The notes under the pieces are model-generated. The model was not told the DNA's origin. It did not search any database and worked only from the letters and a program-made list of their open reading frames with translations. Positions 20,095-40,171 of a stretch of DNA of 64,000 nucleotides are shown here, piece by piece (the first letter of the stretch is position 1; the number at the start of each line of letters is the position of its first letter). The stretch comes from Streptomyces sp. BV286 (lineage in GTDB: Bacteria; Actinomycetota; Actinomycetes; Streptomycetales; Streptomycetaceae): NCBI RefSeq assembly GCF_019090165.1, contig NZ_JAHRIB010000172.1, forward strand, positions 1 to 64,000. Direction: 5' to 3'. Both the position numbers and the translations under genes were made by a program.

Positions 20095-21456
20095 ATGGAC
20101 AAGCAGCAGGAGTTCGTGCTCCGTACGTTGGAGGAGCGCGACATCCGTTTCGTACGCCTGTGGTTCACGGATGTGCTGGGCTTCCTCAAGTCCGTGGCCG
20201 TGGCCCCGGCCGAGCTGGAACAGGCATTCGACGAGGGCATCGGCTTCGACGGGTCGGCCATCGAGGGCTTCGCCCGCGTGTACGAGTCCGACATGATCGC
20301 CAAGCCGGACCCGTCGACGTTCCAGGTCCTCCCGTGGCGGGCGGAGGCACCCGGCACGGCGCGCATGTTCTGCGACATCCTGATGCCGGACGGCTCCCCG
20401 TCCTTCGCGGACCCGAGGTACGTGCTGAAGCGGGCGCTGGCCAAGGCCTCCGACCTGGGCTTCACCTTCTACACCCACCCGGAGATCGAGTTCTTCCTGC
20501 TGAAGGACAAGCCGACGGACGGCTCGCGGCCGACCCCGGCCGACAACTCCGGCTACTTCGACCACACCCCGCACAACGTCGGCATGGACTTCCGCCGCCA
20601 GGCGATCACCATGCTGGAGTCGATGGGCATCTCGGTCGAGTTCTCGCACCACGAGGGCGCGCCGGGCCAGCAGGAGATCGACCTCCGCTACGCGGACGCC
20701 CTCTCCACGGCCGACAACATCATGACGTTCCGCCTGGTCATGAAGCAGGTGGCGCTGGAGCAGGGCGTCCAGGCGACGTTCATGCCGAAGCCGTTCAGCG
20801 AGCACCCGGGCTCGGGCATGCACACGCACCTCTCCCTCTTCGAGGGCGACCGCAACGCGTTCTACGAGTCGGGCTCCGAGTACCAGCTCTCCAAGGTCGG
20901 CCGCTCCTTCATCGCGGGCCTGCTCAAGCACTCGGCGGAGATCGCCGCCATCACCAACCAGTGGGTCAACTCGTACAAGCGCATCTGGGGCGGCTCCGAG
21001 CGCACCGCCGGCGCCGGCGGCGAGGCCCCCTCGTACATCTGCTGGGGCCACAACAACCGCTCGGCCCTGGTCCGCGTGCCGATGTACAAGCCCGGCAAGA
21101 CGGGCTCGGCACGGGTGGAGGTCCGCTCCCTCGACTCGGGCGCGAACCCCTACCTGTCGTACGCGGTCCTGCTGGCCGCCGGCCTCAAGGGCATCGAGGA
21201 GGGCTACGAGCTGCCCCCAGGCGCCGACGACGACGTCTGGGCCCTCTCGGACGCCGAGCGCCGCGCGATGGGCATCGAGCCCCTGCCCCAGAACCTGGGC
21301 GAGTCCCTCACCCTCATGGAACGCAGCGAACTGGTCGCCGAAACCCTCGGCGAACACGTCTTCGACTTCTTCCTGCGCAACAAGCGCCAGGAGTGGGAGG
21401 AGTACCGCTCCGAGGTGACCGCCTTCGAGCTGCGGAAGAACCTGCCGGTGCTGTAG
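20095..21456 (+). CDS. glnA2: type I glutamine synthetase paralogue GlnA2
   Basis: 453 residues. It has the beta-grasp domain (RFVRLWFTDVLG; latch GFDGSAIEGFA) and the catalytic barrel with metal ligands in PEIEFFL and GQQEIDLRY, then HTHLS, the ammonia/substrate region NQWVNSYKRI and the ATP site NRSALVRVP. A Y-E-L-P motif sits where GSI enzymes carry the adenylylatable Tyr. Whether it is modified cannot be told. Length and sequence fit the SCO2241-like GlnA2. The last 28 codons (21370-21453) plus terminator are duplicated at 36280 and 40048: an AICE is integrated in the 3' end, so the present C-terminus is probably element-derived but still intact. Confidence 0.95.
   Translation: MDKQQEFVLRTLEERDIRFVRLWFTDVLGFLKSVAVAPAELEQAFDEGIGFDGSAIEGFARVYESDMIAKPDPSTFQVLPWRAEAPGTARMFCDILMPDGSPSFADPRYVLKRALAKASDLGFTFYTHPEIEFFLLKDKPTDGSRPTPADNSGYFDHTPHNVGMDFRRQAITMLESMGISVEFSHHEGAPGQQEIDLRYADALSTADNIMTFRLVMKQVALEQGVQATFMPKPFSEHPGSGMHTHLSLFEGDRNAFYESGSEYQLSKVGRSFIAGLLKHSAEIAAITNQWVNSYKRIWGGSERTAGAGGEAPSYICWGHNNRSALVRVPMYKPGKTGSARVEVRSLDSGANPYLSYAVLLAAGLKGIEEGYELPPGADDDVWALSDAERRAMGIEPLPQNLGESLTLMERSELVAETLGEHVFDFFLRNKRQEWEEYRSEVTAFELRKNLPVL
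21370..21456 (+). repeat. attL: attL: glnA2 3' end, copy L of the att repeat
   Basis: The 24 bp from 21370 (beginning TTCCTGCGCAACAAGCGC) are identical at 36280 and 40048. The following codons to the stop are conserved with copy M (36280-36366) except for synonymous changes. Tyrosine-integrase crossover should lie within the shared 24 bp. Everything to its right here would be left-end element DNA. Confidence 0.85.
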
Positions 21457-21493
21457 GGGCAGGTCAGAGCGGGTTTTCTCGCCAACCAGACGA

Positions 21494-21524
21494 TTGGGCC
21501 GACGGTCGCATACCGTCGGCCCAA
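21494..21524. terminator. bidirectional terminator shared by glnA2 and int
   Basis: Perfect 13-bp arms TTGGGCCGACGGT (21494-21506) / ACCGTCGGCCCAA (21512-21524) with a 5-nt loop, between the glnA2 stop and the convergent int stop. A near-identical hairpin follows copy M (36404-36434), so the element carries its own version. Confidence 0.85.
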
Positions 21525-21531
21525 CGCTGTC

Positions 21532-22800
21532 TTACTGCCCCTGGGCCGTCTGTGGGCCGTCCGACGCCGGATCGGCCCCGTCATACAGGCTGTCCACGGC
21601 CATGCGGGCGCGGGCGTCGCTGTTCGGCATGAGGTGGGTGTAGACCCGGAGCGTGAATCCAGGGTCGTTGTGTCCGAGGTAGCGGCTCAGCGCCTTGATG
21701 TTCTCCCCCGCGTTCAGCAGGACCGACGCGTAGAAGTGTCTCAGGGCGTGCATGCCGTGTTCGCGGGCGGCTTGGTGACGCTCGCCCGGCTTCGGCTCTG
21801 GTAGCACCCCGGCCGCTACGAGAGCAGGTTTCCATGCGCGGTCGTTGAAATCGGTTCGCCGAACCGCGCCCGTACCGTCAAGGCGGGTGAACAGCAACTG
21901 CCGTGTCACCGGGCGGCCGTCCTTCCGAAGCCACGGCAAGGTGATCGAGACCGGCGGGAACGCCTTCATGTGGCTCTTGAGGATGTCCGCCACGCGATCG
22001 GACAGGGGAACGTCGCGAAGCTTGTCCCGTTTCGGCGGACCGAACACGAGCCCCCCGGTCGTCACCTTGACCTGATTCACGACGTGCAGCCATCCGGAAT
22101 CGAAGTCAATTTCGTCGACAGGTAGCCCGAAGATCTCCCCTTGCCGCATCCCGCACCCCGCCCCGAGATCGACCGCCGCGCGGAAGCGCTCCGGCAGCGC
22201 TTCCCGGACGCCGAAGACGCGTTCAGCCGTCCACGGCACTACCCGGCCGGCTCCCGGCGCAGGAGGGCGTACGGACTGCGCGCGACACGGGTTCTTCAAC
22301 AGGTGGGCGTCATCGACGGCCGCGTTGAGGATCGTCGATACGCTGTTGTAGATCACCCGTCGGTACGACGACGCAGGTAGGGCCCGTTCCAACTCGCTCA
22401 GCCAGTCCCGGATGTGTTCAGGCTTGAAGGACCCGAGGGGGCGCGTCCCGATATATGGGATCGCGTGACCGCGAACCGCAGAGGTGACCGTCTCGCGGGT
22501 CGTCAAGTCGGTGGTCTGGGTACTCAGCCACTTCTCGGCGTACTGCCCGAACGTCACACGGCCGGCGGCCTGGTCCACGTAAGTGCCGCTGTCCATGTCG
22601 GCTTCCGTCTTCGTGAGCCACTTCTCGGCGAGTCGCTTCTGTCCGTCGGGGAAGCTTTTGGACTTCTCGGTGCCGTCGGGGCCGATGTACCGGGCCCGGT
22701 AGCGCAGGCCGCTTCCATGGCGGTCGCTCTTGATGCGGACGGCCTTGCCGGCCGCGTTGGTCTCGGTCTTGAACCAGCGGTCTTGGATGTGGCCTGCCAT
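21532..22800 (-). CDS. int: tyrosine recombinase / integrase
   Basis: 422 residues. It has an N-terminal arm/AP2-like region (about 20-70; YRARYIGPDGTEKSKSF), a SAM-like core-binding domain (about 75-170) and a catalytic domain with Arg in GAGCGMRQGEIFGL, His-x-x-Arg in MHALRHFYAS and the nucleophile Tyr in LRVYTHLMP. It would recombine attP with attB in the glnA2 3' end. It is convergent to glnA2 and adjacent to attL, the usual AICE position. The last residues contain SDGPQTA, encoded by a 19-bp sequence repeated near the right end (36156). xis lies upstream with a hairpin between them. Confidence 0.95.
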   Translation of the reverse strand: MAGHIQDRWFKTETNAAGKAVRIKSDRHGSGLRYRARYIGPDGTEKSKSFPDGQKRLAEKWLTKTEADMDSGTYVDQAAGRVTFGQYAEKWLSTQTTDLTTRETVTSAVRGHAIPYIGTRPLGSFKPEHIRDWLSELERALPASSYRRVIYNSVSTILNAAVDDAHLLKNPCRAQSVRPPAPGAGRVVPWTAERVFGVREALPERFRAAVDLGAGCGMRQGEIFGLPVDEIDFDSGWLHVVNQVKVTTGGLVFGPPKRDKLRDVPLSDRVADILKSHMKAFPPVSITLPWLRKDGRPVTRQLLFTRLDGTGAVRRTDFNDRAWKPALVAAGVLPEPKPGERHQAAREHGMHALRHFYASVLLNAGENIKALSRYLGHNDPGFTLRVYTHLMPNSDARARMAVDSLYDGADPASDGPQTAQGQ

Positions 22801-22879: not shown

Positions 22880-23122
22880 TCAGGCGGCGGCGTGGTCTGC
22901 GGTCTTGCGCTGAGTGACGTAGGCGCGGACGTCGGTGGGGTCGTAGCGGAGGTGCTTGCCGATGCGGAATCCGGGCGGGCCGATTCGCTTCTTGCGCCAC
23001 TGGTAGACGGTCTCTTTGGGGACCTCGAAGATTCCGGCGATGTCGTCGGGGGTGAGATAGCGGTCCGGCAGCCCGGCGCGGAGCGTGGCGCGCGGGTCCG
23101 GCTGTTCATGTGCAGTACTCAT
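22880..23122 (-). CDS. xis: excisionase / MerR-like helix-turn-helix protein
   Basis: 80 residues from the ATG at 23122 (MSTAHEQPD), preferred over an upstream in-frame start because the latter runs into the repeat region. It is a HTH_17-type winged helix (YLTPDDIAGIFEVPKETVYQWRK, then GFRIGKHLRYDPTDVRAYV). Proteins of this type next to AICE and phage integrases act as excisionases or directionality factors. It lies between the iteron array and int, transcribed toward int. Confidence 0.85.
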   Translation of the reverse strand: MSTAHEQPDPRATLRAGLPDRYLTPDDIAGIFEVPKETVYQWRKKRIGPPGFRIGKHLRYDPTDVRAYVTQRKTADHAAA

Positions 23123-23188
23123 GGCATGTCCTCCGTGCGCGGGCCGGGGCAGGCTTCGGGGTGCGTGTGTGTCCGAGGTGGGGATTTC

Positions 23189-23406
23189 TGCGTCACCCGC
23201 GTCATCTGCGTCATGCACGCGTCTGACCTGCGGGTTTGGGGTGACGCAGAGGTTTGGGTGTGCGTCATCGGTGACGCAGGCTGTCCGTCATCGGTGACGC
23301 AGGTGACGCAGGTGACGCACGGTGACGCAGAGATATGCCGTCTGCGTCACCCGCGTCCGTGCAGGTCACCCGCCGTTTTGTGGGGTCGGGTGACGCAGGT
23401 GACGCA
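23189..23406. repeat. GTGACGCA iteron array (candidate replication origin)
   Basis: Ten exact copies of the octamer. Eight are direct (starting at 23241, 23271, 23294, 23303, 23312, 23322, 23390, 23399) and two inverted (23189, 23343), plus TGCGTCAT variants. The central copies are spaced 9-10 bp apart, about one helical turn. It sits in the 461-bp gap between xis and rep, a normal place for a Rep-bound origin. Binding by the element's own replication proteins is inferred. A regulatory role for xis is the main alternative. Confidence 0.7.
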
Positions 23407-23520
23407 GCGTTCCCCTACTTAGGAAAAAAGGAGCGGGTTTCTGTGGTGGTGCGGTGCGCCTCAGGAAGTGAAGAAGGAGCCGCTTCGCGGCACGTCCTTG
23501 GCCGCCGCGGCGGCGGCGAA

Positions 23521-23564
23521 CAAGCAAGAGGAGCACGCCGGGCCGGGGGTGCTCCTCTTGCTTG
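23521..23564 (-). terminator. terminator downstream of rep
   Basis: Perfect 16-bp arms CAAGCAAGAGGAGCAC (23521-23536) against 23549-23564 with a 12-nt loop, 19 bp after the stop of the leftward rep gene. It separates the replication operon from the iteron array. Confidence 0.8.
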
Positions 23565-23583
23565 TATGCGGTAGGCGAGCCGG

Positions 23584-25056
23584 TCAGAACGCCCGTTCCT
23601 GCTCGTGCGGGGGTGGGGCGAGTCGGGTGATTTCGATGTAGCGGCCCTCTTTGGTACGGCCGGAGTCGATGATCACGCCCCGGGCGGCGAGGGTGGGCTG
23701 AAGACGCTTGAGCCGGTCGGAGAGAACCTTTCCGGTGGTCGGCCACCCCTTCGGCAGGGCGCGCAGTTCCTCGCCCGCGTAGAGGCGGCTGAGGCAGTGC
23801 AGCCACTGCGTGGACGTCATCCGCTCCTCCGCGCCCGCCTCCATGCCCGCCGCGTGCGCGATCACGGTCTGCGCCAACAGGTCGCCCTCGATCACGTCGT
23901 CGTTCAGGTCATCGAGACTGGCCCGGTAGGCGCTGAGCGCTCCCAGACCGGTCGCGGCATCGAGCTGCGCGCACAGGTGCGCGAAGTCCGCCATCCGCAG
24001 GTCCGTGGGAGTCTCGGCTGCAACAGCGCGGACCTTGACCGTGAGATCCAGCAGCGAGCCGAGAACGACGGGCAGGACCTCCGCGTACTCCGTCCACAGC
24101 TCATCCTCGGTACGCCGCACCCGGGGGCGCTCCAACCGCAGCGGCAGGAGCCGTTCCGCCAGGTCGGGGCGGATGACTCCCACGTCGATGCCGGTCAGGA
24201 GGAGAGGGCGGCGGTAGCCGACGCGGAACACGTCTCCGTCGGTGAACAGGGCGCGTTTGACGCTTTCGGCTCCGGTGACGATGCAGCACATGGCGTCGGA
24301 CAGGTCCGGCGTCATGTGGGACAGGTTGTCCAGCGCGGTCACCCACCCCGCGGCCACGGCCGCGATCAGGTTCTCTTCGTCCTTGGGTGCGCGGCGCAGG
24401 TCGCCGGTCATGCCCTCGATGATCCGCACGAGCATCCGCCCGCCCGTGGACTTGCCCGCGCCCTGCGGTCCGGTGAGGAACGGCGCGGGGACGGGCACGG
24501 ACGGTCCGAGGCAGCCGATGAGCCAGGCGATGGCCAGGCACTCGGTCTCTGCGGTGGCGAAGTTGCACAGCCTCATCAGGAGGTCGATGCCCTTGCCGTC
24601 GGTGTCCTTGACGGGCAGGGGCAGTTCGCCGGTGAGTTGTGTGCGTCGCCAGCAGACCTCGCGCGGGTCGGGGGTGAGGATGTCCCAGCCCGAAGGGTGG
24701 ATGCGGACGGACTGTCCGTCATCGCGGCCCAGGTCCAGCCACGTCGCGCCGTCGAATCCCGGGGCAACGCGGATGTGGACGGGCTGTACGTCCTCGGTCA
24801 GGGCGAGTGCTTCGATCAAGTCCAACGCCTCCTTGAGTGCACTGCCGTTGAACACGCCGGCCCCGTCGCGGAAGAGGCCGACCATGAGTTCCTGCCGGTG
24901 GCTGCCCGTGGTGCCCTGGGAGCGGATCGGACGGGCCACGGGGTGGGCGTTCTTCTGCGCGTACACGGTTCCGTCGGCGGTGCGGAAGTACCGGAAGTGC
25001 GCTTGCGCGTAGTCGGTGATGACCTTGCGAGCTGGGTCCTTCTCGTCCTCAGACAT
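23584..25056 (-). CDS. AICE replication protein: D5/P4-like ATPase/helicase
   Basis: 490 residues from the ATG at 25056 (MSEDEKDPARK). The open frame continues upstream only as an antisense shadow of the primase gene. The central NTPase has Walker A FLTGPQGAGKS and Walker B-like WVTALDNLSH, followed by a C-terminal winged-helix-like region (about 430-490). It resembles plasmid and phage DNA-primase-associated helicases. It is separated by only 2 bp from the prim-pol gene upstream, so the two are co-translated. In AICEs with prim-pol replication modules such a pair replaces the rolling-circle RepSA protein (family knowledge). Confidence 0.8.
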   Translation of the reverse strand: MSEDEKDPARKVITDYAQAHFRYFRTADGTVYAQKNAHPVARPIRSQGTTGSHRQELMVGLFRDGAGVFNGSALKEALDLIEALALTEDVQPVHIRVAPGFDGATWLDLGRDDGQSVRIHPSGWDILTPDPREVCWRRTQLTGELPLPVKDTDGKGIDLLMRLCNFATAETECLAIAWLIGCLGPSVPVPAPFLTGPQGAGKSTGGRMLVRIIEGMTGDLRRAPKDEENLIAAVAAGWVTALDNLSHMTPDLSDAMCCIVTGAESVKRALFTDGDVFRVGYRRPLLLTGIDVGVIRPDLAERLLPLRLERPRVRRTEDELWTEYAEVLPVVLGSLLDLTVKVRAVAAETPTDLRMADFAHLCAQLDAATGLGALSAYRASLDDLNDDVIEGDLLAQTVIAHAAGMEAGAEERMTSTQWLHCLSRLYAGEELRALPKGWPTTGKVLSDRLKRLQPTLAARGVIIDSGRTKEGRYIEITRLAPPPHEQERAF

Positions 25057-25058
25057 GG

Positions 25059-25913
25059 CTACAGCCCCAATGCGGTACGGGCGTTGGTCCACGCGTCGGT
25101 GCAGTGCCGGACGGTTTCGCCCTTGGCCTGCGCGGCGGTGAACAGCCGCGCGGCGTGGGTGTCGGTGAGGCAGCCGCACCGGCCGTGCGTGGACAGCACC
25201 GCGAGGAACGTCCGGTAGACGGTCGCATGCACCGCGCTGGACGCCTCGGTGATGCGCTGTACGGCCATGGCAATGCCACGGTCCAGATAGGCGGGCGTGC
25301 GATGCGGGCACGCCCCGCCCTGACCTCTCAGGGGCACTGTGACGGCCTGTGGCGCCCTGCGGGCGGGGGACGTCTCCTTTACTGCGAGCGCGCGCACCAC
25401 GGCGGGGATAGCGGCTGTGGTGCCGGTGCCGGGTCCGAGCCAACGGGCGTACGCCATAAGGGACTTGATGTCCACGCCGGGCCTGACCGCGTTCACGGAC
25501 TGCATGACGCCCTGGTAGATCCAGTGCTCGCCCCGCGTCGTCGCCACCGTGCGCGTCGCGGGCAGGGTGGCGCGGGCCCATTCGATGGCCGCCGCGTCGT
25601 CCAGGTCGACCACAGTCAGCCCTGCCCCGCCGGGGTGGTAGGCGACCGCAGCGGCCGTACGCCACGCGGTCGCCCACTGCGGGGAGTTGAGGGTGTGCGG
25701 GTCGGTGGTGGCGGCGGCCCACGCGTGGCAGGGGTACGGGCAGGCGCAGGGCCCGGGGGTCCGCATGTTCGGCCGGCCGCCGCACACGTTCCGGGCGCAG
25801 GAACGGCAGTTGCCGAATGGGCCTTTCCCTGCTCGCAGGGGCAGCACGGGCACGCCGTGCGCGGCGAGTGTGAGCGCGGCGGGCACTCGCCGAATGTCGG
25901 TGGGTTGCGTCAT
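25059..25913 (-). CDS. bifunctional DNA primase/polymerase (prim-pol) domain protein
   Basis: 284 residues from the ATG at 25913 (MTQPTDIRRVP). It is a prim-pol fold protein with VPVLPLRAGKGPFG, the acidic metal motif VVDLDDAAAIEW and the nucleotide-binding TTRGEHWIYQG. A Cys-rich insertion (CRSCARNVCGG, CACPYPC) between the first two motifs probably binds zinc. It would prime and perhaps extend DNA at the element's origin. The stop is 2 bp before the start of the helicase gene, which gives a compact replication operon. Confidence 0.85.
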   Translation of the reverse strand: MTQPTDIRRVPAALTLAAHGVPVLPLRAGKGPFGNCRSCARNVCGGRPNMRTPGPCACPYPCHAWAAATTDPHTLNSPQWATAWRTAAAVAYHPGGAGLTVVDLDDAAAIEWARATLPATRTVATTRGEHWIYQGVMQSVNAVRPGVDIKSLMAYARWLGPGTGTTAAIPAVVRALAVKETSPARRAPQAVTVPLRGQGGACPHRTPAYLDRGIAMAVQRITEASSAVHATVYRTFLAVLSTHGRCGCLTDTHAARLFTAAQAKGETVRHCTDAWTNARTALGL

Positions 25914-26866: not shown

Positions 26867-28984
26867 TCACTCAGCGGCAGAAGCGGAACCGTCGATGTCG
26901 CGGTTGGTGAGGGCGCGGGTGAGGCGGTCGCGGCCGATGACCATGACGCCGTCGGACTTGTAGGGCTCGGCTCCGGTGCCGTCGAGAACGCGGGTGAGGT
27001 CACCGAACGACCAGTCGCCGTAGGCGTCTGCGTTGAGGGCGGACAGCCGCTTGATGACGTCCTGGGTGCGTACCCGGGAGGCGGTGCCGACCACGGATGC
27101 GATGTCGGTGAGCGGGTCGCGGTCCTCGCCCCGTTCGATGACGTGCAGGGTGGTGACGCCGTCCCGGAGTGCTTTGGCGCGGTCGGCGATGGCGTGGGCC
27201 GCGTCGGTGTCGATGTAGTGCGTGCGCACCGTGATGGATGCCTGCCCGGCGGGGATCTCGATGCCGTCGGACGCGACGACCAGGGTTCCCTTGTCGAGCC
27301 CGGGGCGTAGCAGGTGCGGGGCGGCGCCGCCGTCGACGGCCTTGTCGCTCAGGGCCATGCGGGCCTGCGACTCGGTACCGAGCGCGAGGGAGGCGCGGGT
27401 GTGGGCTCCCTCGCGGACCAGCTTGGGGAGGTTCTGGTCGGTGGGGTCCTGGGTGCCCTGCCACAGCAGCACGTTCACGGCGCGGCCCTGGTTGTGGACC
27501 TTGCGGCAGGCCATGAAGTACCGGGAGTTGGCCTTGGACCCGCCATAGGGTCGCTTGTCCTCGTCCTTGGCGGGGCACATGAACGCGACCTGTGCCTCGT
27601 CGACCAGCAGGATGAGCGGCGGGAACGCGGTGCCGGGCGGGGCCTGGAGACGGCGGTTCATCTCCTCCACACCGCTTTCCAGCATCTCGGTCGCCTCGAT
27701 CACGTGCTCATCCGTGGGCCCTTGGATGAGGACGGTGGCGAGGCCGTCGAACATGGCCCAGTCGCCGGCGCCCTTCAGGTCGGCCACCCGGAACTCGACC
27801 GTGCGGTCCAGTGCGATCCACAGCGCGAGTGCACGCAGGGCGGCGGTCTTGCCCTGGTTGGACATGCCGGTCACCAGCAGCATTCGCTGAAACAGGCTCA
27901 GCAGGGCGGCATCGCCGCGCAGGTCCTGTCCCCAGGGGGCGCGGCCCTTGGTGTAGTCGGCGGTCATCGTCTCGTCCGTGACGAGCGGAGACGGGCCGAT
28001 CGGCTCATCGAGCGCTCCGGAGTCGGCTACCCACAGCCGCACGGTGCGGGCCGCCTGCGGGATAGCGATGAACACCTCGTGCTCATGGCGGGTGAGGTTC
28101 TCGGCGAGCTTGCGGCGCTTGCCCTGCACTTCGTTCGTCGACACCCCGGAGGGCAGGGTGACGTCGACTTCGACGCCGCATCCGGCGATCCGGATCGGAC
28201 CGAGCATGCTCGCGCCGGCGTCGCCCATGTCCTTGATGGCGTTGCGCAGGGCGGGCACTCCGAGGTCGCGCAGGGCCTTGACGACGATCGAGGGGGTGAT
28301 CGGTTCGCCCTCGCCGTTGCGGACGTTGTCGGGCAGGGCCCATGCGGGGGCGGCCTGCTGCTTGCTGCCGACCGCCCACAGCGCGAGCAGCGCGAGGAAC
28401 GGGCCGATCGTCAGCGCGGGTCCCCAGACGACCTGGACGATGGTGATCAGCAGATTGATGAAGTCGACCACGGCCATCAAAGGCGTGACGACGTGCGTGA
28501 CGTCCTTCGTCGCAATGGCCATCACGATGCCGAGGGCGACCAGCGAGCCGATCCCCATCCCCGTCCCGACCAGCACACCCTTGGCCGCGTCGATGGGTGA
28601 GGTGAGAAGGTCCATCCGGCGGCGGTGCCGCGCGTCACGGAAGCGCTGCCCGCGCTCCTCCCACTCCGCGGCCACCTCGTAGTTGCCCTGCGCTTCGGCG
28701 GCACGCAGGAGGCGTTCGTAGCGGGCGGCGGTACGGCCGTCCCAGGTCCGGCGGGCCGCGATCCGTGCCCCGCCCACAACGTAGAGGCTGTGGCGGGCGA
28801 GTGCCCGGGCGCCGGTCTTGGTGCGGTCGTGCGTAACGGCCGTCTTCACGGCGCGGCCGGAGCGCACCCACAGCGGTACCACGGGAGCGGCCGGCGGGTC
28901 GGGGACCACGGTCAGTGTGGTCACGGACGCGACCGGGGCAGGGAGATTGGTGTCTTTGCGCAGGTTGATGACGTTCTCGGACAT
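26867..28984 (-). CDS. traB: FtsK/SpoIIIE-type conjugative DNA translocase (TraB/TraSA)
   Basis: 705 residues. A cytoplasmic N-terminus of about 140 residues is followed by two to three membrane helices (about 145-225), then an FtsK-like motor with Walker A GMSNQGKT and Walker B LILLVDEAQVAF, and a C-terminal winged-helix region (about 630-690; TQDVIKRLSALNADAYG, then LTRALTNRDIDG). A membrane hexamer of TraB transfers double-stranded DNA between hyphae without a relaxase. The CTCCCTG cluster directly after its stop is the likely recognition site. It is the lead gene of the leftward block, with the metallopeptidase-like gene 95 bp upstream. Confidence 0.93.
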   Translation of the reverse strand: MSENVINLRKDTNLPAPVASVTTLTVVPDPPAAPVVPLWVRSGRAVKTAVTHDRTKTGARALARHSLYVVGGARIAARRTWDGRTAARYERLLRAAEAQGNYEVAAEWEERGQRFRDARHRRRMDLLTSPIDAAKGVLVGTGMGIGSLVALGIVMAIATKDVTHVVTPLMAVVDFINLLITIVQVVWGPALTIGPFLALLALWAVGSKQQAAPAWALPDNVRNGEGEPITPSIVVKALRDLGVPALRNAIKDMGDAGASMLGPIRIAGCGVEVDVTLPSGVSTNEVQGKRRKLAENLTRHEHEVFIAIPQAARTVRLWVADSGALDEPIGPSPLVTDETMTADYTKGRAPWGQDLRGDAALLSLFQRMLLVTGMSNQGKTAALRALALWIALDRTVEFRVADLKGAGDWAMFDGLATVLIQGPTDEHVIEATEMLESGVEEMNRRLQAPPGTAFPPLILLVDEAQVAFMCPAKDEDKRPYGGSKANSRYFMACRKVHNQGRAVNVLLWQGTQDPTDQNLPKLVREGAHTRASLALGTESQARMALSDKAVDGGAAPHLLRPGLDKGTLVVASDGIEIPAGQASITVRTHYIDTDAAHAIADRAKALRDGVTTLHVIERGEDRDPLTDIASVVGTASRVRTQDVIKRLSALNADAYGDWSFGDLTRVLDGTGAEPYKSDGVMVIGRDRLTRALTNRDIDGSASAAE

Positions 28985-31747: not shown

Positions 31748-32143
31748 ATGGACCAGAGCCCCGAAGCGCCCAAGCAGACGCCCACGGCCAAGGAGATCGC
31801 GGCGGAGTTCCGCGAGAAGATCACGGGCCCCGACCGCGAGTACGAGCCGGGCGTCCAGCTCCCAGCCGCTCGGAAGCTCGCCAAGGAACTTGGCGTGCAG
31901 CTCATGACTGTTCAGAGCGCGTTCGGTCAACTCCGCGACGAGGGGTTGGTTCTCACTCAGCAGGGCCGCGGAACGTTCGTCCGTGATCCCTCCGTGCCCC
32001 TCGGCACCGAGCCGGGTAGTAGCCCGGCGTTCACGGCCTTGGCGGCAGAGCTCAGCACGATTCATGACGCCCTCCACTTGCTCGGGGAGCGTCTAGACCG
32101 GCTTGAGCGGCTCGTGGGTAGCGAGACTCCACCGTCGCCGTGA
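31748..32143 (+). CDS. GntR-family repressor (KorSA-like)
   Basis: 131 residues, with a winged helix at about 12-80 (TAKEIAAEFREKI, GVQLPAARKLAKELGVQLMTVQSAFGQLRDEGLV, then GRGTFVRD) and only a short helical tail for dimerisation. It has no UTRA or FCD effector domain. KorSA of pSAM2 has this architecture and represses replication and transfer genes (family knowledge). It is divergent from the leftward AICE operons, with two operator palindromes upstream. It is the probable master switch of the element. Confidence 0.88.
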   Translation: MDQSPEAPKQTPTAKEIAAEFREKITGPDREYEPGVQLPAARKLAKELGVQLMTVQSAFGQLRDEGLVLTQQGRGTFVRDPSVPLGTEPGSSPAFTALAAELSTIHDALHLLGERLDRLERLVGSETPPSP

Positions 32144-34274: not shown

Positions 34275-36020
34275 TCACGCAGTGTGGTTCGCTGCTTCGA
34301 TGAATTGAATTATTTTAGCGAGCTGCTTCGACAGGTGAGATTTCTGGTCAGGGAGCTCACCCCAGCCGCTGCATACTGTCCGAGCGATCTTATTTTTGTC
34401 TGGATGGAATAGGTCGCCTGACGTTTTACGCAGTGCAAGTGGATTGGTCCATCGGTCTCCATTCCATGTGAACTTCGGGGCATTAGGGTGTACGTCAGCT
34501 ACTGCCGCCGCAAGAAGCTTAGAGGGCGCATAATTCTCGATCGTGTATCCCTCTGTGACCCAGGCGAATCCCGTGGTTAGGTCTCTCTCGAACTCGTCAA
34601 TCACTCTCTTCTTTGTCGGAGAAATTCTGGCTCTACCTGATGTTTTATCACTATCGATGATGATAGAGGTGTACCGATTCAAGCGGCGAAGCTCGATAAA
34701 GTCCGTCACCTCGTTATCGCTTACGGTGAGATGATTGAGAAGCCTCCCTCCGTAGAACATGATTGAGTAGTGCAGGCCTTCAATCAGGTCCGGATTGAGC
34801 TGTGAGATCCAATGTTGAAGGTAGATTCGATCGGATGGACCCTCGACCCAGATGATCGCATTTGTTTGCAAGATGTCTGATGGTCTATAGCCGAGGTCGA
34901 CACACACTTCCGAAAGCTCTGCCGGCGTAGTGGCTGGCGCCAACGTGCTTTGTTTTCCATCGTGAGTTACATGGACAATGTTTGACCTCTTATAGTCCAA
35001 CAGGTGGGCGGAGTGCGTAGCGATGACGTATTGGTTTGTGGTTTGACTGTACAGGTATCTGATTAGTTTCCTTTGATATTCAGGGTGCATGTGTACTTCC
35101 GGTTCTTCAATGCACACGACCGACCCCTGAAGGACTGTGGCTGCAACCGCCAGGATCACCACCTGGTGGATGCCGGTACCCAAGTGCTCTAGTGGCAGCA
35201 CCTTTCCATCATGATGGATGTTGAGTGTTTGGGCGCCGTACGGCACTTCGAGTCTCGCGTCGGCGTCCCCCAGAATGTTTCTTAGGAAGTCATTGACGGC
35301 TACGAAGCGAGCGGAGTCCGCTTTGTAAGAGACTGCCGGAGGATTCTGGAGTTGTTGGAGTTGATTTAGAAGGCCCGTACCGTCATAAGACTCCACGGCG
35401 TCCGCAGAGGTTATTTTCCTAAACGCTTCGATTGTCACGCAAGGCGGCAACTTCAACTTTTCCGCGGTCAAGATTTTTTGAAGGAGGTTTTTAGCGTTCT
35501 CGATAGTTGAGGTGACAGGGTCATTTTGATTGTACCCGCGCGTCAGGTCATTGCTGGCTTGCATTGACTGATTGTAGAGCTCGGGAGGAGCTATCGATGC
35601 GAGCTGCTTCGGGTCGAGTGATCGTTCCTCCGTGAAGCGAAACCAAGTATATTCACTGCCGTTCGGATGTAGTTCTGGGTTTTCAATTAGCTTGAGCAGG
35701 AAAGCGCCAGCCTGGGACTGATCGATCCTCTCTGGCAGCTGCGGGAAGGTCTTCCGAATCTCCTCCGGGGTTAGTCTGATTGGGATTGAGTACGTAAAGT
35801 AGTCATCTCTCTCCGCGTGTTCAGGAGTGTCAAGCTCGTCAAATGAGATACGTCCAGATCCCTTCAGCACTTTGGCTACGGATCGAAGGAAATTCGACTT
35901 TCCGGAATTATTTTGTCCGGCCAGGAGGTTGACCTCAGCGAACGGCCCTGCCTGTTGCACATGACGGCCGAAGCTGCGGTAGTTAGAAACTCCGAATCCA
36001 CGTAGAAGAACTCGACTCAT
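34275..36020 (-). CDS. OLD-family AAA ATPase with TOPRIM nuclease domain
   Basis: 581 residues from the ATG at 36020 (MSRVLLRGFGVSNYRSFGRH). The ABC/SMC-like ATPase has Walker A AGQNNSGKS at about 34-42, a signature-like LEHLGTGIHQ, Walker B VVCIEEPEVHMHP and a His switch ATHSAHLLD. A C-terminal TOPRIM domain follows with WVEGPSDRIYL (Glu), YGGRLL and IIIDSDKTS (DxD). The set matches overcoming-lysogenization-defect (OLD) nucleases. No UvrD-like partner is adjacent, so it is not a Gabija pair. Codon use is clearly lower in GC than the neighbours, which suggests recent acquisition as AICE cargo. Anti-phage function is plausible, not shown. Confidence 0.88.
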   Translation of the reverse strand: MSRVLLRGFGVSNYRSFGRHVQQAGPFAEVNLLAGQNNSGKSNFLRSVAKVLKGSGRISFDELDTPEHAERDDYFTYSIPIRLTPEEIRKTFPQLPERIDQSQAGAFLLKLIENPELHPNGSEYTWFRFTEERSLDPKQLASIAPPELYNQSMQASNDLTRGYNQNDPVTSTIENAKNLLQKILTAEKLKLPPCVTIEAFRKITSADAVESYDGTGLLNQLQQLQNPPAVSYKADSARFVAVNDFLRNILGDADARLEVPYGAQTLNIHHDGKVLPLEHLGTGIHQVVILAVAATVLQGSVVCIEEPEVHMHPEYQRKLIRYLYSQTTNQYVIATHSAHLLDYKRSNIVHVTHDGKQSTLAPATTPAELSEVCVDLGYRPSDILQTNAIIWVEGPSDRIYLQHWISQLNPDLIEGLHYSIMFYGGRLLNHLTVSDNEVTDFIELRRLNRYTSIIIDSDKTSGRARISPTKKRVIDEFERDLTTGFAWVTEGYTIENYAPSKLLAAAVADVHPNAPKFTWNGDRWTNPLALRKTSGDLFHPDKNKIARTVCSGWGELPDQKSHLSKQLAKIIQFIEAANHTA

Positions 36021-36155
36021 GGGTGTCAGCCTCCTGGGCGCGTTCGGTATCACCAATCCTGACAGGATCATTGTTGCGCTTCATGGCCCCGGGCACCCCG
36101 GGAACCCGTGGAGAGGGAGGTGACGAGCGCGCAGGAGGTTCAAGCCGTGCGAGAC

Positions 36156-36208: not shown

Positions 36209-36279
36209 GACGACTGTCCGACCGCAGGTCAGCGCTGCGCCGACGTCGATCGCGGGAGGTCGCTCCGGGCCGACGTCAC

Positions 36280-36366
36280 TTCCTGCGCAACAAGCGCCAG
36301 GAGTGGGAGGAGTACCGCAGCGAGGTGACGGCCTTCGAGCTGCGGAAGAACCTGCCTGTGCTGTAG
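36280..36366 (+). repeat. att copy M: second glnA2 3' end
   Basis: 28 codons plus stop of glnA2. The first 40 bp (from 36279) are identical to copy L. The remaining differences in the coding part (Ser, Thr and Pro codons) are all synonymous. It is the right end of the AICE and the left end of the second segment. A hairpin terminator follows, so this copy was probably once the working end of glnA2. Confidence 0.85.
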
Positions 36367-36403
36367 GTGCAGGCCATTGCAGTTTTCCCGCCAGAACGAC
36401 ACG

Positions 36404-36434
36404 TGGGGCCGACGGTTGCGAACCGTCGGCCCCA
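36404..36434 (+). terminator. terminator hairpin after glnA2 copy M
   Basis: Perfect 14-bp arms TGGGGCCGACGGTT (36404-36417) against 36421-36434, loop GCG. Ten inner bases of each arm match the hairpin after the real glnA2 (21494-21524), and the spacing from the stop is the same within a few bases. Confidence 0.8.
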
Positions 36435-36611
36435 TGGCGTCTGACCCGATCCGGGCCGTCGCCGGACGCGCCTCTGGTCCGACCGGCACCGCATCGCCGC
36501 CCGTGTCCAGCGGGCCTCAGCCAGGATTCCGTGAATCTCGTTGTGCCCACTCCCCATCTCGCTACGCTGCTCGCACGGCGTGACAGAGCGGTCACGGACG
36601 ACAGTGAGGAC

Positions 36612-37189: not shown

Positions 37190-39841
37190 GTGGGCTACGC
37201 CGCTCAGGTCGTTCAGTACGCAGCCGAACGGCAGCCTGTGGCATGGCCGTACCGGATGGGTGTCATCCCTGCGGAGGCGCACTGTTTCCAGCATCGCAGT
37301 GCCGTGGACCATCTCGACGCGGCAATGGCCGACGGTGGGACGGCGGTGCTGTGCCAGGTGCTGTCGGGTACCGGCGGTGTCGGCAAGACACAGCTCGCGG
37401 CTCGCTACGCGCGCCATCAGTGGAGCGCCGGCACGGTGGATCTGCTGGTCTGGGTCACTGCGGGCAACCGGGACGCGATCGTTTCCAGCTACGCGCATGC
37501 CGGCCGGAAGCTGGCCGGTGCGGATGGTGGAGATCCTGAACAGGCCGCCCAGGACTTCCTGATCTGGCTGGAGGTCACTGACCGCCGTTGGCTTGTCGTA
37601 CTGGATGACCTCGCTGACCCTGGTGATCTGCGGAGCCTGTGGCCCCCGGAGCACCCAACGGGGCGTGTGGTGGTAACCACACGACGTCAGGATGCCGCAC
37701 TGGCCCACGACCGGCGGCGGTTCATCACCGTCGGTCTGTTCACGCCGGAAGAGGCCACGGCCTACCTCGTTGCCAAGTTCGCCGAACGCGACATACGGGA
37801 CGACCCTGAGGAGATCCGGGGACTCGCCGCGGATCTGGGCTGTCTGCCGCTCGCCCTCGCGCAAGCCACCGCCTACATGGCTGACCGGCGTATGGGCTGC
37901 GGCGAGTATCGAAGGCGACTGGCCGACCGGCGGAGCGCGCTCTCGGAGATTCTTCCCGAGGACGGAGCGCTGCCGGACGAGCAGCGCTCGACCGTGGCCG
38001 CCACATGGTCGCTGTCGATCGAACTGGCCGATCAGCTCAAACCGGTCGGTCTGGCCCGTCCCATGCTCCGACTGGCCAGCATGCTCAACCCCAACGGCAT
38101 CCCCCTCCCTGTGCTGACCAGCCCCGCGGCCCTGGCCTGCCTGGGGCCAACCGCCCGCCTGCCCGAAACCGCCCGCGAAGCGATGCTGTGCCTGCAGCGG
38201 CTGAGCCTCGTCGACGTCGACCTCGTGGAAGGCAGTCTGCGAGTCCACAGTCTCATTCAGCGGGCCACCCGGGACGAGTCCGTGGCGGCCGGGGACGAGT
38301 TCGGCCGGATCACCGAGACGGCAGCGCAGGCACTGCTGGAGGCCTGGCCTGCCGTCGAGGCGGACATGGGCGGTGAGGTACTTCGAGCCAACACCGAGGC
38401 GCTGCACAGGAATTCGGGATCGATCCTCTGGTCGGCGGGCACCCATGACGTGTTGCTACGGGCGGGACGCAGCCTGGGCAGGGCTGGACAGTTGGCTTCG
38501 GCGATCGACTACTGGGAGAAGCTGCAGAACGTCGCCGAGGACTGCCTCGGCCCTGATCACCCCGACTCGCTCGCCATCCGCGGTCACCTGATCGGCTCGC
38601 GCTTTCGCACCGGGGACCGGATGGGGGCGATCACCGCGGCCACCCATCTGCTCGACGACTGGAAGCGGAGCCGAGGCCCCGACCACCTCGGCACGCTGAC
38701 CATCCGAAGCAACATCGCCGAGTGGCTCGGCCGGTCGGGAGATCTGGACGCGGCCATATCTGCCACCAGTTCACTACTCGCCGATCAGACGCAGGTGCTG
38801 GGCGCGGAGCACTCCGACACGTGGGCCACCCACCGCATGCTCATTCACTGGCATCTCAGTGCCAGCGATCCCGGATCCGCGATCGCCGAATTGCGGAAGC
38901 TGTACGCCATTCAGCTTCGGGCGCTGGGGCCCGAGCACTCCCAAGTTCTCTTCATCCGCCGCCGACTGGCCATGCACATGCTCGACACGGGAGAGAGTCC
39001 ATTGGCGGAGGTGGAGCTGAGAGAAGTTCTTGCCATCCTGAATCGCACACTGGGCCCGGAACATTCCGAGACCGTACGCACCAGCCGCGCGCTTACGCAC
39101 TGTGTACGACTGGTTGCGAAGCTGAAGCGCCAGCAGCAGGCCGAGGAATCTCGTGACGGTCCCCACAGCGCCGCTGCATCCGGCACTGCGAAGAGCGTAC
39201 CCAAGCAGGCGAAAGGGAAGCCGAAATCCCAGGCAGTCATTGCTTTGGAAGGTCATATCGCGGCCCGCAGAGTGAGAGCCGGAAACAATGGGGCATCCAT
39301 CAGCATTCTCCGCCGTCACCTCGCACTTCAGCGTGAGCAGGAGGACGGTCGAACGGACGCGGTGGCCGCACTGCGTTTGGCTCGCGATGACATCGAACGA
39401 AATCTCGGCCCGGATCACCGTGAAACGCTCGCGGTCCGGGGTGCCATCGCTGAATGGCTGAAGCGGGCCGGCCGCCTGACCGACGCGGCCTCCATGCTGG
39501 AGGTACTGCTCGACGACACCGAGCGGTTGTTTGGTCAGAAGGACCGTGCCACTGTGGCGACGCGCGCGCACCTCCGCAGTGTGCTCCAGCTCCGCGGGGG
39601 AGATGCCAGGTCATGGCACGGTCGTATTCACAGGACTACGTCCCCGCCGTCCGCCTCAAAGTCCGCCTATTTCCTGCGCTGGCGTGCGGCCGACGGCACT
39701 CCACAGTCGATGGGCCCTTTCGAGAGCGGCGATGTCGCGCGGCAGGCGGGCGTATATGCGAGAAACGGGGGTGGCACAGCGATACAAGTGGTCAAGCAGG
39801 AGGCCGATGACCGGTCCACCAAAGAAGACCCGCTTCCCTGA
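37190..39841 (+). CDS. STAND NTPase with C-terminal TPR repeats (possible conflict/defence protein)
   Basis: 883 residues from a GTG at 37190. The frame is open further upstream (ENGLVVSASDQSIAVGY) without a start codon between 37097 and 37190, so the true N-terminus is uncertain. The NB-ARC-type NTPase has Walker A GTGGVGKT at about 60-67, Walker B RWLVVLDDLAD, RxGR-like TGRVVVTTR and LGCLPLALAQA. From about 430 there are kinesin-light-chain-type TPRs (repeated LGPDH/LGPEH with TL..R) and then a distinct C-terminal domain (YFLRWRAADGTPQSMGPFE). STAND/TPR proteins often sense invaders. No effector domain is visible. Confidence 0.85.
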   Translation: MGYAAQVVQYAAERQPVAWPYRMGVIPAEAHCFQHRSAVDHLDAAMADGGTAVLCQVLSGTGGVGKTQLAARYARHQWSAGTVDLLVWVTAGNRDAIVSSYAHAGRKLAGADGGDPEQAAQDFLIWLEVTDRRWLVVLDDLADPGDLRSLWPPEHPTGRVVVTTRRQDAALAHDRRRFITVGLFTPEEATAYLVAKFAERDIRDDPEEIRGLAADLGCLPLALAQATAYMADRRMGCGEYRRRLADRRSALSEILPEDGALPDEQRSTVAATWSLSIELADQLKPVGLARPMLRLASMLNPNGIPLPVLTSPAALACLGPTARLPETAREAMLCLQRLSLVDVDLVEGSLRVHSLIQRATRDESVAAGDEFGRITETAAQALLEAWPAVEADMGGEVLRANTEALHRNSGSILWSAGTHDVLLRAGRSLGRAGQLASAIDYWEKLQNVAEDCLGPDHPDSLAIRGHLIGSRFRTGDRMGAITAATHLLDDWKRSRGPDHLGTLTIRSNIAEWLGRSGDLDAAISATSSLLADQTQVLGAEHSDTWATHRMLIHWHLSASDPGSAIAELRKLYAIQLRALGPEHSQVLFIRRRLAMHMLDTGESPLAEVELREVLAILNRTLGPEHSETVRTSRALTHCVRLVAKLKRQQQAEESRDGPHSAAASGTAKSVPKQAKGKPKSQAVIALEGHIAARRVRAGNNGASISILRRHLALQREQEDGRTDAVAALRLARDDIERNLGPDHRETLAVRGAIAEWLKRAGRLTDAASMLEVLLDDTERLFGQKDRATVATRAHLRSVLQLRGGDARSWHGRIHRTTSPPSASKSAYFLRWRAADGTPQSMGPFESGDVARQAGVYARNGGGTAIQVVKQEADDRSTKEDPLP

Positions 39842-40047: not shown

Positions 40048-40134
40048 TTCCTGCGCAACAAGCGCCAGGAGCGGGAGGAGTGCCGCAGCGAGGTGACGGC
40101 CTTCGAACTGCGGAAGAATCTGCCTGTGCCGTAG
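40048..40134 (+). repeat. attR: att copy R: third, decaying glnA2 3' end
   Basis: The first 24 bp are identical to copies L and M. Over the 28 codons there are five further differences from M, three of which change amino acids (Trp to Arg, Tyr to Cys, final Leu to Pro). Such changes fit loss of selection after displacement. No strong hairpin follows at the position seen after L and M. It is probably the original chromosomal end. Confidence 0.8.
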
Positions 40135-40171
40135 CGGCAGGTCGAGCGCCAAGAGAGCGGAGTCGTGAAGC

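Follow-up and report, generated by a model that had tools for sequence, protein, structure and literature searches.

A repeat array directly 3' of rep as a putative iteron-type replication origin of an integrated element in Streptomyces sp. BV286

The stretch of DNA analyzed here, a 64,000-nucleotide window of Streptomyces sp. BV286 (contig NZ_JAHRIB010000172.1, positions 1 to 64,000; hereafter the window), carries an integrated element with an array of short repeats beside its rep gene, which we consider a putative replication origin. Integrase (PF00589), primase-polymerase (prim-pol, PF09250) with Rep, and a sub-threshold PF01580 Tra protein were found together in this one element, as in an actinomycete integrative and conjugative element (AICE). 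On the minus strand, the order of transcription is prim-pol (25059-25913; PF09250, E = 2.7e-9), which is the operon partner directly upstream of rep; rep (23584-25056), encoding a predicted D5-like AAA+/superfamily 3 (SF3)-type helicase with a C-terminal winged helix according to its structural model; a conserved hairpin past rep; the array; xis (22880-23122; HTH_17); and the tyrosine integrase gene int (21532-22800). The hairpin (23520-23565) is a perfect 17-bp inverted repeat with arms at 23520-23536 and 23549-23565 and is a probable terminator. Profile searches also identified a TraB-type FtsK/SpoIIIE translocase on the minus strand (26867-28984; PF01580 with E = 4e-4 and 20.3 bits, below the cut-off of 24) and, further up from the rep operon, a GntR regulator (31748-32143).

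The exact octamer GTGACGCA occurs ten times in the window, and all ten copies lie within 23189-23406, eight forward (starting at 23241, 23271, 23294, 23303, 23312, 23322, 23390, and 23399) and two inverted (starting at 23189 and 23343). This agrees with the first-pass annotation of this DNA, which had reported eight direct and two inverted octamers with a core at 9-10 bp spacing: the four copies of the core (23294-23329) follow each other at 9, 9, and 10 bp, and the right-hand pair (23390-23406) is spaced at 9 bp. The remaining GTGACGCA copies stand singly at 23189-23196 and 23343-23350 on the minus strand and at 23241-23248 and 23271-23278 on the plus strand. Two inverted copies of the variant ATGACGCA (23207-23214 and 23261-23268, minus strand), overlooked in the initial description of a ten-copy array along with the conserved boxes that are not iterons, complete the array, which thus has 12 RTGACGCA sites (10 GTGACGCA and 2 ATGACGCA). 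The location first given, between xis and the replication operon, was right and can be refined to 3' of the prim-pol/rep operon and 5' of xis-int. Mechanically called open reading frames do span the xis-rep gap (approximately 23123-23583), but none is gene-like, so the gap was fairly described as gene-free.

The clustering of the octamers is beyond chance. Sixty sequences simulated with a third-order Markov model (mean total of 3.5 copies, largest 9) never placed more than two GTGACGCA copies within 218 bp, and in a scan with 20-bp steps the only 8-mers reaching at least six copies per 218 bp were GTGACGCA and two octamers overlapping it in register. The tandem pair was unique to the array in the 9.4-Mb genome assembly, giving four overlapping matches, all at the array. 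The window-wide count was only mildly unusual (10 versus a mean of 4.16 expected, with 10 reached in 1 of 100 shuffles).

Of the 246 Streptomyces genomes sampled, 97 had relatives of Rep (E 0.001), near and distant ones alike. We fetched 120 stretches and 80 named loci, the latter being the best 80 of 345 relatives. Removal of entries with identical rep plus gap reduced 201 loci to 187, of which 19 had a rep below 80% identity, leaving 168 distinct loci. Among the first 60 loci, Rep was 82-96% identical in 55 and 39-61% identical in 5, and int, xis, traB, and gntR were variable, some loci having close relatives of these genes and others none that could be detected. The same array, read as RTGACGCA, was present at the same place in most of the 55 loci with a close Rep. 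A rep-independent signature, RTGACGCAGRTGACGCAGN{0,12}TTAGG, corresponding to the right-hand pair plus the CTTAGG box, was then sought in the 246 Streptomyces genomes and matched at 49 places in 41 of them; a reversed control pattern had no match among those listed for the same genomes. All 49 places were located 150-212 bp past the 3' end of rep, on the opposite strand, although in a few loci what was found there was a rep fragment. Every one of these places adjoins rep, and among the first 60 loci the neighbors vary; the array follows rep and not int, xis, traB, or gntR. The comparison of iterons in related prim-pol AICEs that had been proposed with the first-pass annotation showed the array to be retained in loci with a different int, xis, TraB, or GntR. 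The same annotation had named binding by GntR as an outcome that would refute its proposal; GntR as the reader is disfavored on the sole basis that most of the first 60 loci have either a divergent relative of it or none that is recognizable, these loci for the most part bearing the array, no column-wise test having been applied to it.

The association extended to free plasmids. Thirty-one plasmid records matched and seven were fetched; six of these (NZ_CP109021, CP109214, NZ_CP107980, NC_023068 pFP12, NZ_CP060743, and NZ_CP109564) had the order rep-array-parA with a Rep 58-67% identical to that of the window, parA standing where the window has xis. Five of these plasmids have a prim-pol annotated directly before rep; the sixth, pFP12, has rep at the edge of its record.

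The array region also contains conserved parts other than iterons. In the alignment of 140 loci that could be assigned to one of two array classes (see below), the left box TGTCCGAGGTG-GGATTTCTGCGTCA, the segment TGACCTGCGG-TTT, the box GCAGGTCA, and CTTAGGA were strongly conserved. TGACCTGC, located in the window at 23224-23231 with its inverted partner GCAGGTCA at 23361-23368, was found on either strand in 149 of 168 arrays, with at least two boxes in 77, against 0.066 expected per 310 bp; the inverted pair TGACCTGC/GCAGGTCA was kept whatever the iteron class. CTTAGGA (23418-23424), followed by an A run, forms the right boundary and is a candidate melting region. From the alignment and the genome-wide link to rep, the putative origin, comprising the left box, the 12 RTGACGCA iterons, the TGACCTGC/GCAGGTCA boxes, and the right box, was delimited to 23171-23425.

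Sequence searches did not place Rep in a known family: no Pfam, NCBIfam, or PHROGs family was matched at E 0.001 (best Pfam hit VapE-like, E 0.11), RepAM and the other Pfam-defined replication families included, and a PDB sequence search returned nothing better than E 0.13. An AlphaFold model built with 31 sequences (mean predicted local distance difference test score of 85.9; predicted template modeling score of 0.85) had a predicted C-terminal winged helix with the recognition helix at residues 441-456 and wing strands at 460-467 and 470-477, residues 468-469 forming the turn between the strands, that is, the wing tip. The best Foldseek matches of the model were AsfvPrimPol, vaccinia D5, and the primase-helicase of SaPI5, a Staphylococcus aureus pathogenicity island (SaPI). 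VIA-align 2 placed SaPI5 first (Z of 20.1, root-mean-square deviation of 6.0, 375 residues aligned, model range 1-470), with structures 7ola and 7om0 scoring Z of 20.1 and 19.6 at 9% identity. The 50 structural matches listed did not include the P4 alpha origin-binding domain, which excludes nothing. Rep is thus predicted to be a D5/SaPI5-like helicase with a C-terminal winged helix.

Arrays differed among loci in the first base of the octamer. The 168 distinct loci, all with a Rep at least 80% identical, comprised 92 with GTGACGCA-type arrays (class G), 48 with ATGACGCA-type arrays (class A), 10 mixed, and 18 low, and the class tests were run on the 140 class A and G loci. In the window, the first base of the minus-strand iteron at 23343-23350 tracked the class (0.727 bits at 23350), and that of the last iteron, at 23399, was the best class separator (0.873 bits). 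When the columns of Rep were examined, residue 468 (in numbering that omits the start Met; Lys468 in the window, 469 counting the start Met, codon 23650-23652 on the minus strand) gave 0.705 of the 0.928 bits of class information, followed by a Rep column with 0.366. Lys, Arg, Asn, and His at this wing-tip position went with G, and Ser, Phe, Met, Tyr, Ala, and Gln with A. The combination Ser468 plus Gly470 was A-type in 36 of 36 loci, and Ser468 plus Ala470 was never A-type (10 low, 6 G). Residue 468 alone fitted 133 of the 140 loci, and a two-residue rule (468 and 470) fitted 139. The base preceding the octamer shifted as well, being G in 88% of 775 Lys468 sites and C in 72% of 47 Phe468 sites.

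Independent class switches were counted on a tree built from rep DNA minus its C-terminal part. The class changed 24 times on the best such tree, and of 13 supported independent pairs, residue 468 differed in the same way in 12, in the opposite way in none, and not at all in one (sign test, median p of 0.0005). The two-residue rule was frozen before a hold-out test on 31 new loci, which a search across the whole family had supplied. Six duplicated known arrays and one of the remaining 25 was a 5:5 tie; the frozen rule was right in all 24 scorable loci (17 G, 7 A), which belong to the same protein family and come mostly from genera other than that of the window but within its taxonomic family, two being of its own genus, so that they are not fully independent. 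The co-variation points to Rep and the array being functionally tied.

Column tests on the neighboring proteins, which were restricted to 80% filling and 45% identity as minimum values and superseded earlier prim-pol, Xis, and Int values of up to 0.354 that came from sparse columns, gave no comparable signal. The best prim-pol column, at 0.127 bits, fell inside the shuffled-class range (maximum 0.178), and prim-pol as the reader of the motif is disfavored because of this value; on the sequence comparisons, it is the Rep helicase that looks like the motif reader. The best Xis column, among 49 loci with a related Xis, reached 0.232 bits (shuffled maximum 0.436), and the best Int column, among 48 loci with a related Int, 0.313 (shuffled maximum 0.407), while Rep residue 468 held all of the class information in both subsets (0.931 of 0.931 and 0.918 of 0.918 bits). 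Since the array directly precedes xis-int, the repeats could be Xis operators or excision sites, or the promoter region for xis-int. This is highly improbable given that no Xis or Int column tracks the motif, that parA takes the place of xis in the six plasmids, and that several loci (e.g., L036, L041, and L044) without a recognizable relative of the window's xis keep the array; binding by Xis, the other refuting outcome that had been foreseen, is accordingly disfavored.

A second alternative is that the octamers constitute a cis-acting locus of transfer (clt) or TraB recognition sequence (TRS), gripped by the FtsK-like TraB for conjugative transfer. Like the array, the clt/TRS sites of pSVH1, pJV1, and pIJ101 are short direct repeats carried by mobile DNA of Streptomyces, the known TraB/TraA targets are, in the available portions of the sources, short direct repeats (PMC3583192, PMC4170104), and the element has its own TraB. 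Those sites differ in being read by TraB, which the window motif does not track: in the 56 loci whose TraB belongs to the same family, no TraB column beat shuffled classes (best 0.247 bits, shuffled maximum 0.372), with Rep residue 468 holding 0.575 of 0.782 bits. Moreover, GTGACGCA arrays occur with a TraB only 25-29% identical (e.g., L037 and L051), the locus L036, with a TraB 75% identical, has a ATGACGCA array, and the signature adjoined rep at all 49 places. We therefore regard a transfer site as very unlikely.

The link between wing and array could also reflect genetic hitch-hiking, in which the 3' end of rep and the array move together as a cassette with nothing bound. The C-terminal codons of Rep lie approximately 250 bp from the array, the 24 class changes occurred on a tree without the C-terminal part of Rep, and several C-terminal Rep columns and position 23417 co-vary moderately with the class. 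However, the rep-array linker DNA (23420-23586) held at most 0.181 bits on class, a value without its own shuffled control, and Rep column 486, nearer to the array, held 0.340, compared with 0.705 at residue 468; the link is thus not mere proximity. Loci from other genera likewise obeyed the rule. Hitch-hiking as the whole explanation appears extremely improbable.

The proposal of the first-pass annotation, an array recognized by the helicase-type replication protein, is supported by the rep adjacency and by the wing co-variation. Very probably, the array serves the integrated element, one of a class common among actinomycetes, as a SaPI-like iteron-type origin of replication, read by the element's own Rep. 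Starting from the array, its link to rep, the wing co-variation, and the predicted fold, all computed here, we infer the following sequence of binding, base reading, assembly, melting, and priming that would underlie origin activity. Rep would dock on the repeats through the winged helix at its C terminus, whose recognition helix (approximately 441-456) would read the constant GACGCAG and whose wing tip (468 and 470) would read the preceding base or bases. Several Rep molecules would assemble as a helicase and open the flanking DNA, probably at the CTTAGGA/A-rich box; the prim-pol of the same operon would then lay primers, and host enzymes would complete copying after excision of the element.

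Several observations count against this interpretation. Of the 168 loci, 28 (the 10 mixed and 18 low) were left unscored, and the 14 low loci that were inspected had few intact octamers, their commonest 7-mers being mostly partial (e.g., GTGACGC and GGTGACG). One locus in 140 (L063) breaks the rule, having Arg468 with an A-type array, and the Ser468/Ala470 exception was derived from training loci and was absent from the hold-out. Rep columns 402, 486, and 464 carried 0.31-0.37 bits, over the shuffled maximum of 0.129, and position 23417, 11 bp past the last iteron, carried 0.456 bits; shared ancestry or joint transfer of the 3' end of rep and the array therefore explains part of the signal. 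In the plasmid pFP11 (Rep 34.5% identical), no array was found within the gap 3' of rep, and when three motifs were sought 3' of rep in distant loci, L092, L136, and L140 (35-42%) had zero copies and L094 (41%) at most one of each.

The co-variation, moreover, shows a tie to Rep and says nothing on where replication starts, and the array might be a Rep-binding control locus for copy number, incompatibility, or autoregulation, with strand opening elsewhere, a role that is compatible with an origin role too. Iteron sets outside origins occur in plasmids and in phage P4, and no classical long AT-rich region was identified, which favors such a locus. On the other side, every exact GTGACGCA octamer of the window lies in the array, and the whole skeleton with its flanking boxes is conserved, as expected of an origin 3' of rep such as those of SaPIs and pRN1. 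A separate control locus is in our view unlikely.

Other repeat types occurred with more distant Reps. Three of the plasmids had GGTGACGCAG arrays together with one short wing type, and three had GGGGGGACGCAG arrays together with a longer Rep wing (SGRRSRHEDPNRSR) and an unchanged recognition helix. The longer wing and GGGGGGACGCAG were also found together in a genome locus, L090 (Rep 61% identical), and overall, long-wing Reps with the same recognition helix paired with GGGGGGACGCAG arrays in L090, L254, L258, and L259. In 12 loci with Reps only 32-36% identical (L137-L148), GGACGCTG was present in 5-9 copies within 800 bp past the rep match in 11, with none in L140, although the copies nearest the rep match are possibly coding and many of these loci hold more copies elsewhere. 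GGACGCTG is a candidate for a further iteron type sharing the GACGC core, and the presence of GACGC in the repeats of distant Reps suggests that the core is old and that the ends change.

We lean slightly toward a family-wide lock and key between initiator and origin, in which the helix would fix the GACGCAG half-site and a fast-evolving wing tip (468/470, or the six-residue longer wing) would re-key the preceding bases, with GTGACGCA/ATGACGCA switching many times and GGGGGGACGCAG as a further key. Such keys may set incompatibility groups that let several elements share a host. In a hand count of same-genome pairs of class A and G loci, from which one of two identical G069 loci was dropped, 8 of 17 pairs differed, approximately the expectation from class frequencies; this is no signal, and the incompatibility idea is without support so far. 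As an individual case, L036 and L066 belong to one genome, have rep genes 13 kb apart, and show coexistence of an A-type and a G-type array.

The SaPI modules are among the closest characterized systems. They combine a primase with an initiator helicase and have a repeat origin directly downstream of rep that is bound by the C-terminal domain of Rep, according to the available part of the source (PMC7581432). The element of the window correspondingly has an archaeo-eukaryotic primase-type gene beside rep, a predicted D5-like core with a winged helix, and repeats directly 3' of rep, as at the 49 signature places. It resembles SaPI5 and SaPIbov1 in pairing a primase with an initiator helicase and in the short repeats downstream of rep, which here would likewise be bound by Rep. 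It differs in that SaPI5 Rep fuses both domains whereas the prim-pol of the window is a separate protein, and in belonging to another phylum and element type, having its own TraB and not being a phage satellite. A related arrangement is that of SCCmec, the staphylococcal cassette chromosome, in which the C-terminal domain of the helicase Cch2, acting with CCPol-MP, is described in the accessible text as binding repeats downstream of its operon; these are three 5-nt iterons, and the primase is of another, polymerase type (PMC7581432). Both pRN1 ORF904 and phage BIP-1 combine an archaeo-eukaryotic primase, an SF3 helicase, and a winged helix with an origin downstream of rep, but the pRN1 origin is, as far as the source could be consulted, a 100-bp stem-loop and not a set of iterons, and its protein is a single fused one (PMC4234260).

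Within Streptomyces, the theta plasmid pWTY27 has a predicted prim-pol, RepB, and a RepA that binds nearby repeats, and repAB together with a 300-bp iteron region are all needed for replication, as stated in the available sections of the report (PMC3583192). By that description, it shares with the window a prim-pol, a partner protein, and an adjacent repeat region; its repeats, GTGGGAAC/TTCCCAC, are different, and those sections describe no specificity code. The AICE SLP1 encodes the prim-pol SCO4617 and RepPP, SCO4618, with no origin array described in the portions of the literature at hand. A locus in S. violaceoruber (L177) has a Rep relative with 91% identity approximately 2.2 kb from tRNA-Tyr; SLP1 uses tRNA-Tyr, an indirect hint that SCO4618 may be related to the Rep of the window.

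No origin for prim-pol AICEs was recognized in the open-access literature searched, the accessible parts of which term the prim-pol modules of AICEs only likely or putative replication modules and describe no origin. The present analysis places a putative origin to approximately 250 bp, names a candidate reader, and predicts that one amino acid and one base are coupled. If true, this would allow small new Streptomyces vector replicons and the rational design of compatible ones.

Several further features of the element and its relatives were noted. Of 40 fetched loci that were scanned (L156-L207), 16 contained a tRNA gene, for Cys, Thr, Tyr, Ser, or Arg, and the other 24 contained none; this mixed picture suggests free exchange of the integration module. 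In the window, a glutamine synthetase gene (20095-21456) has two repeats of its 3' end at 85-89% identity (the segments are 21369-21535, 36279-36445, and 40048-40148). They suggest candidate att sites located in a protein gene, as well as a second element, accreted at approximately 36.4-40.1 kb. An AAA ATPase of the AAA_15/AAA_21 kind, possibly defense cargo, is encoded inside the element (34275-36071, minus strand), and a protein with NB-ARC and TPR domains within the accreted stretch (37190-39841, plus strand).
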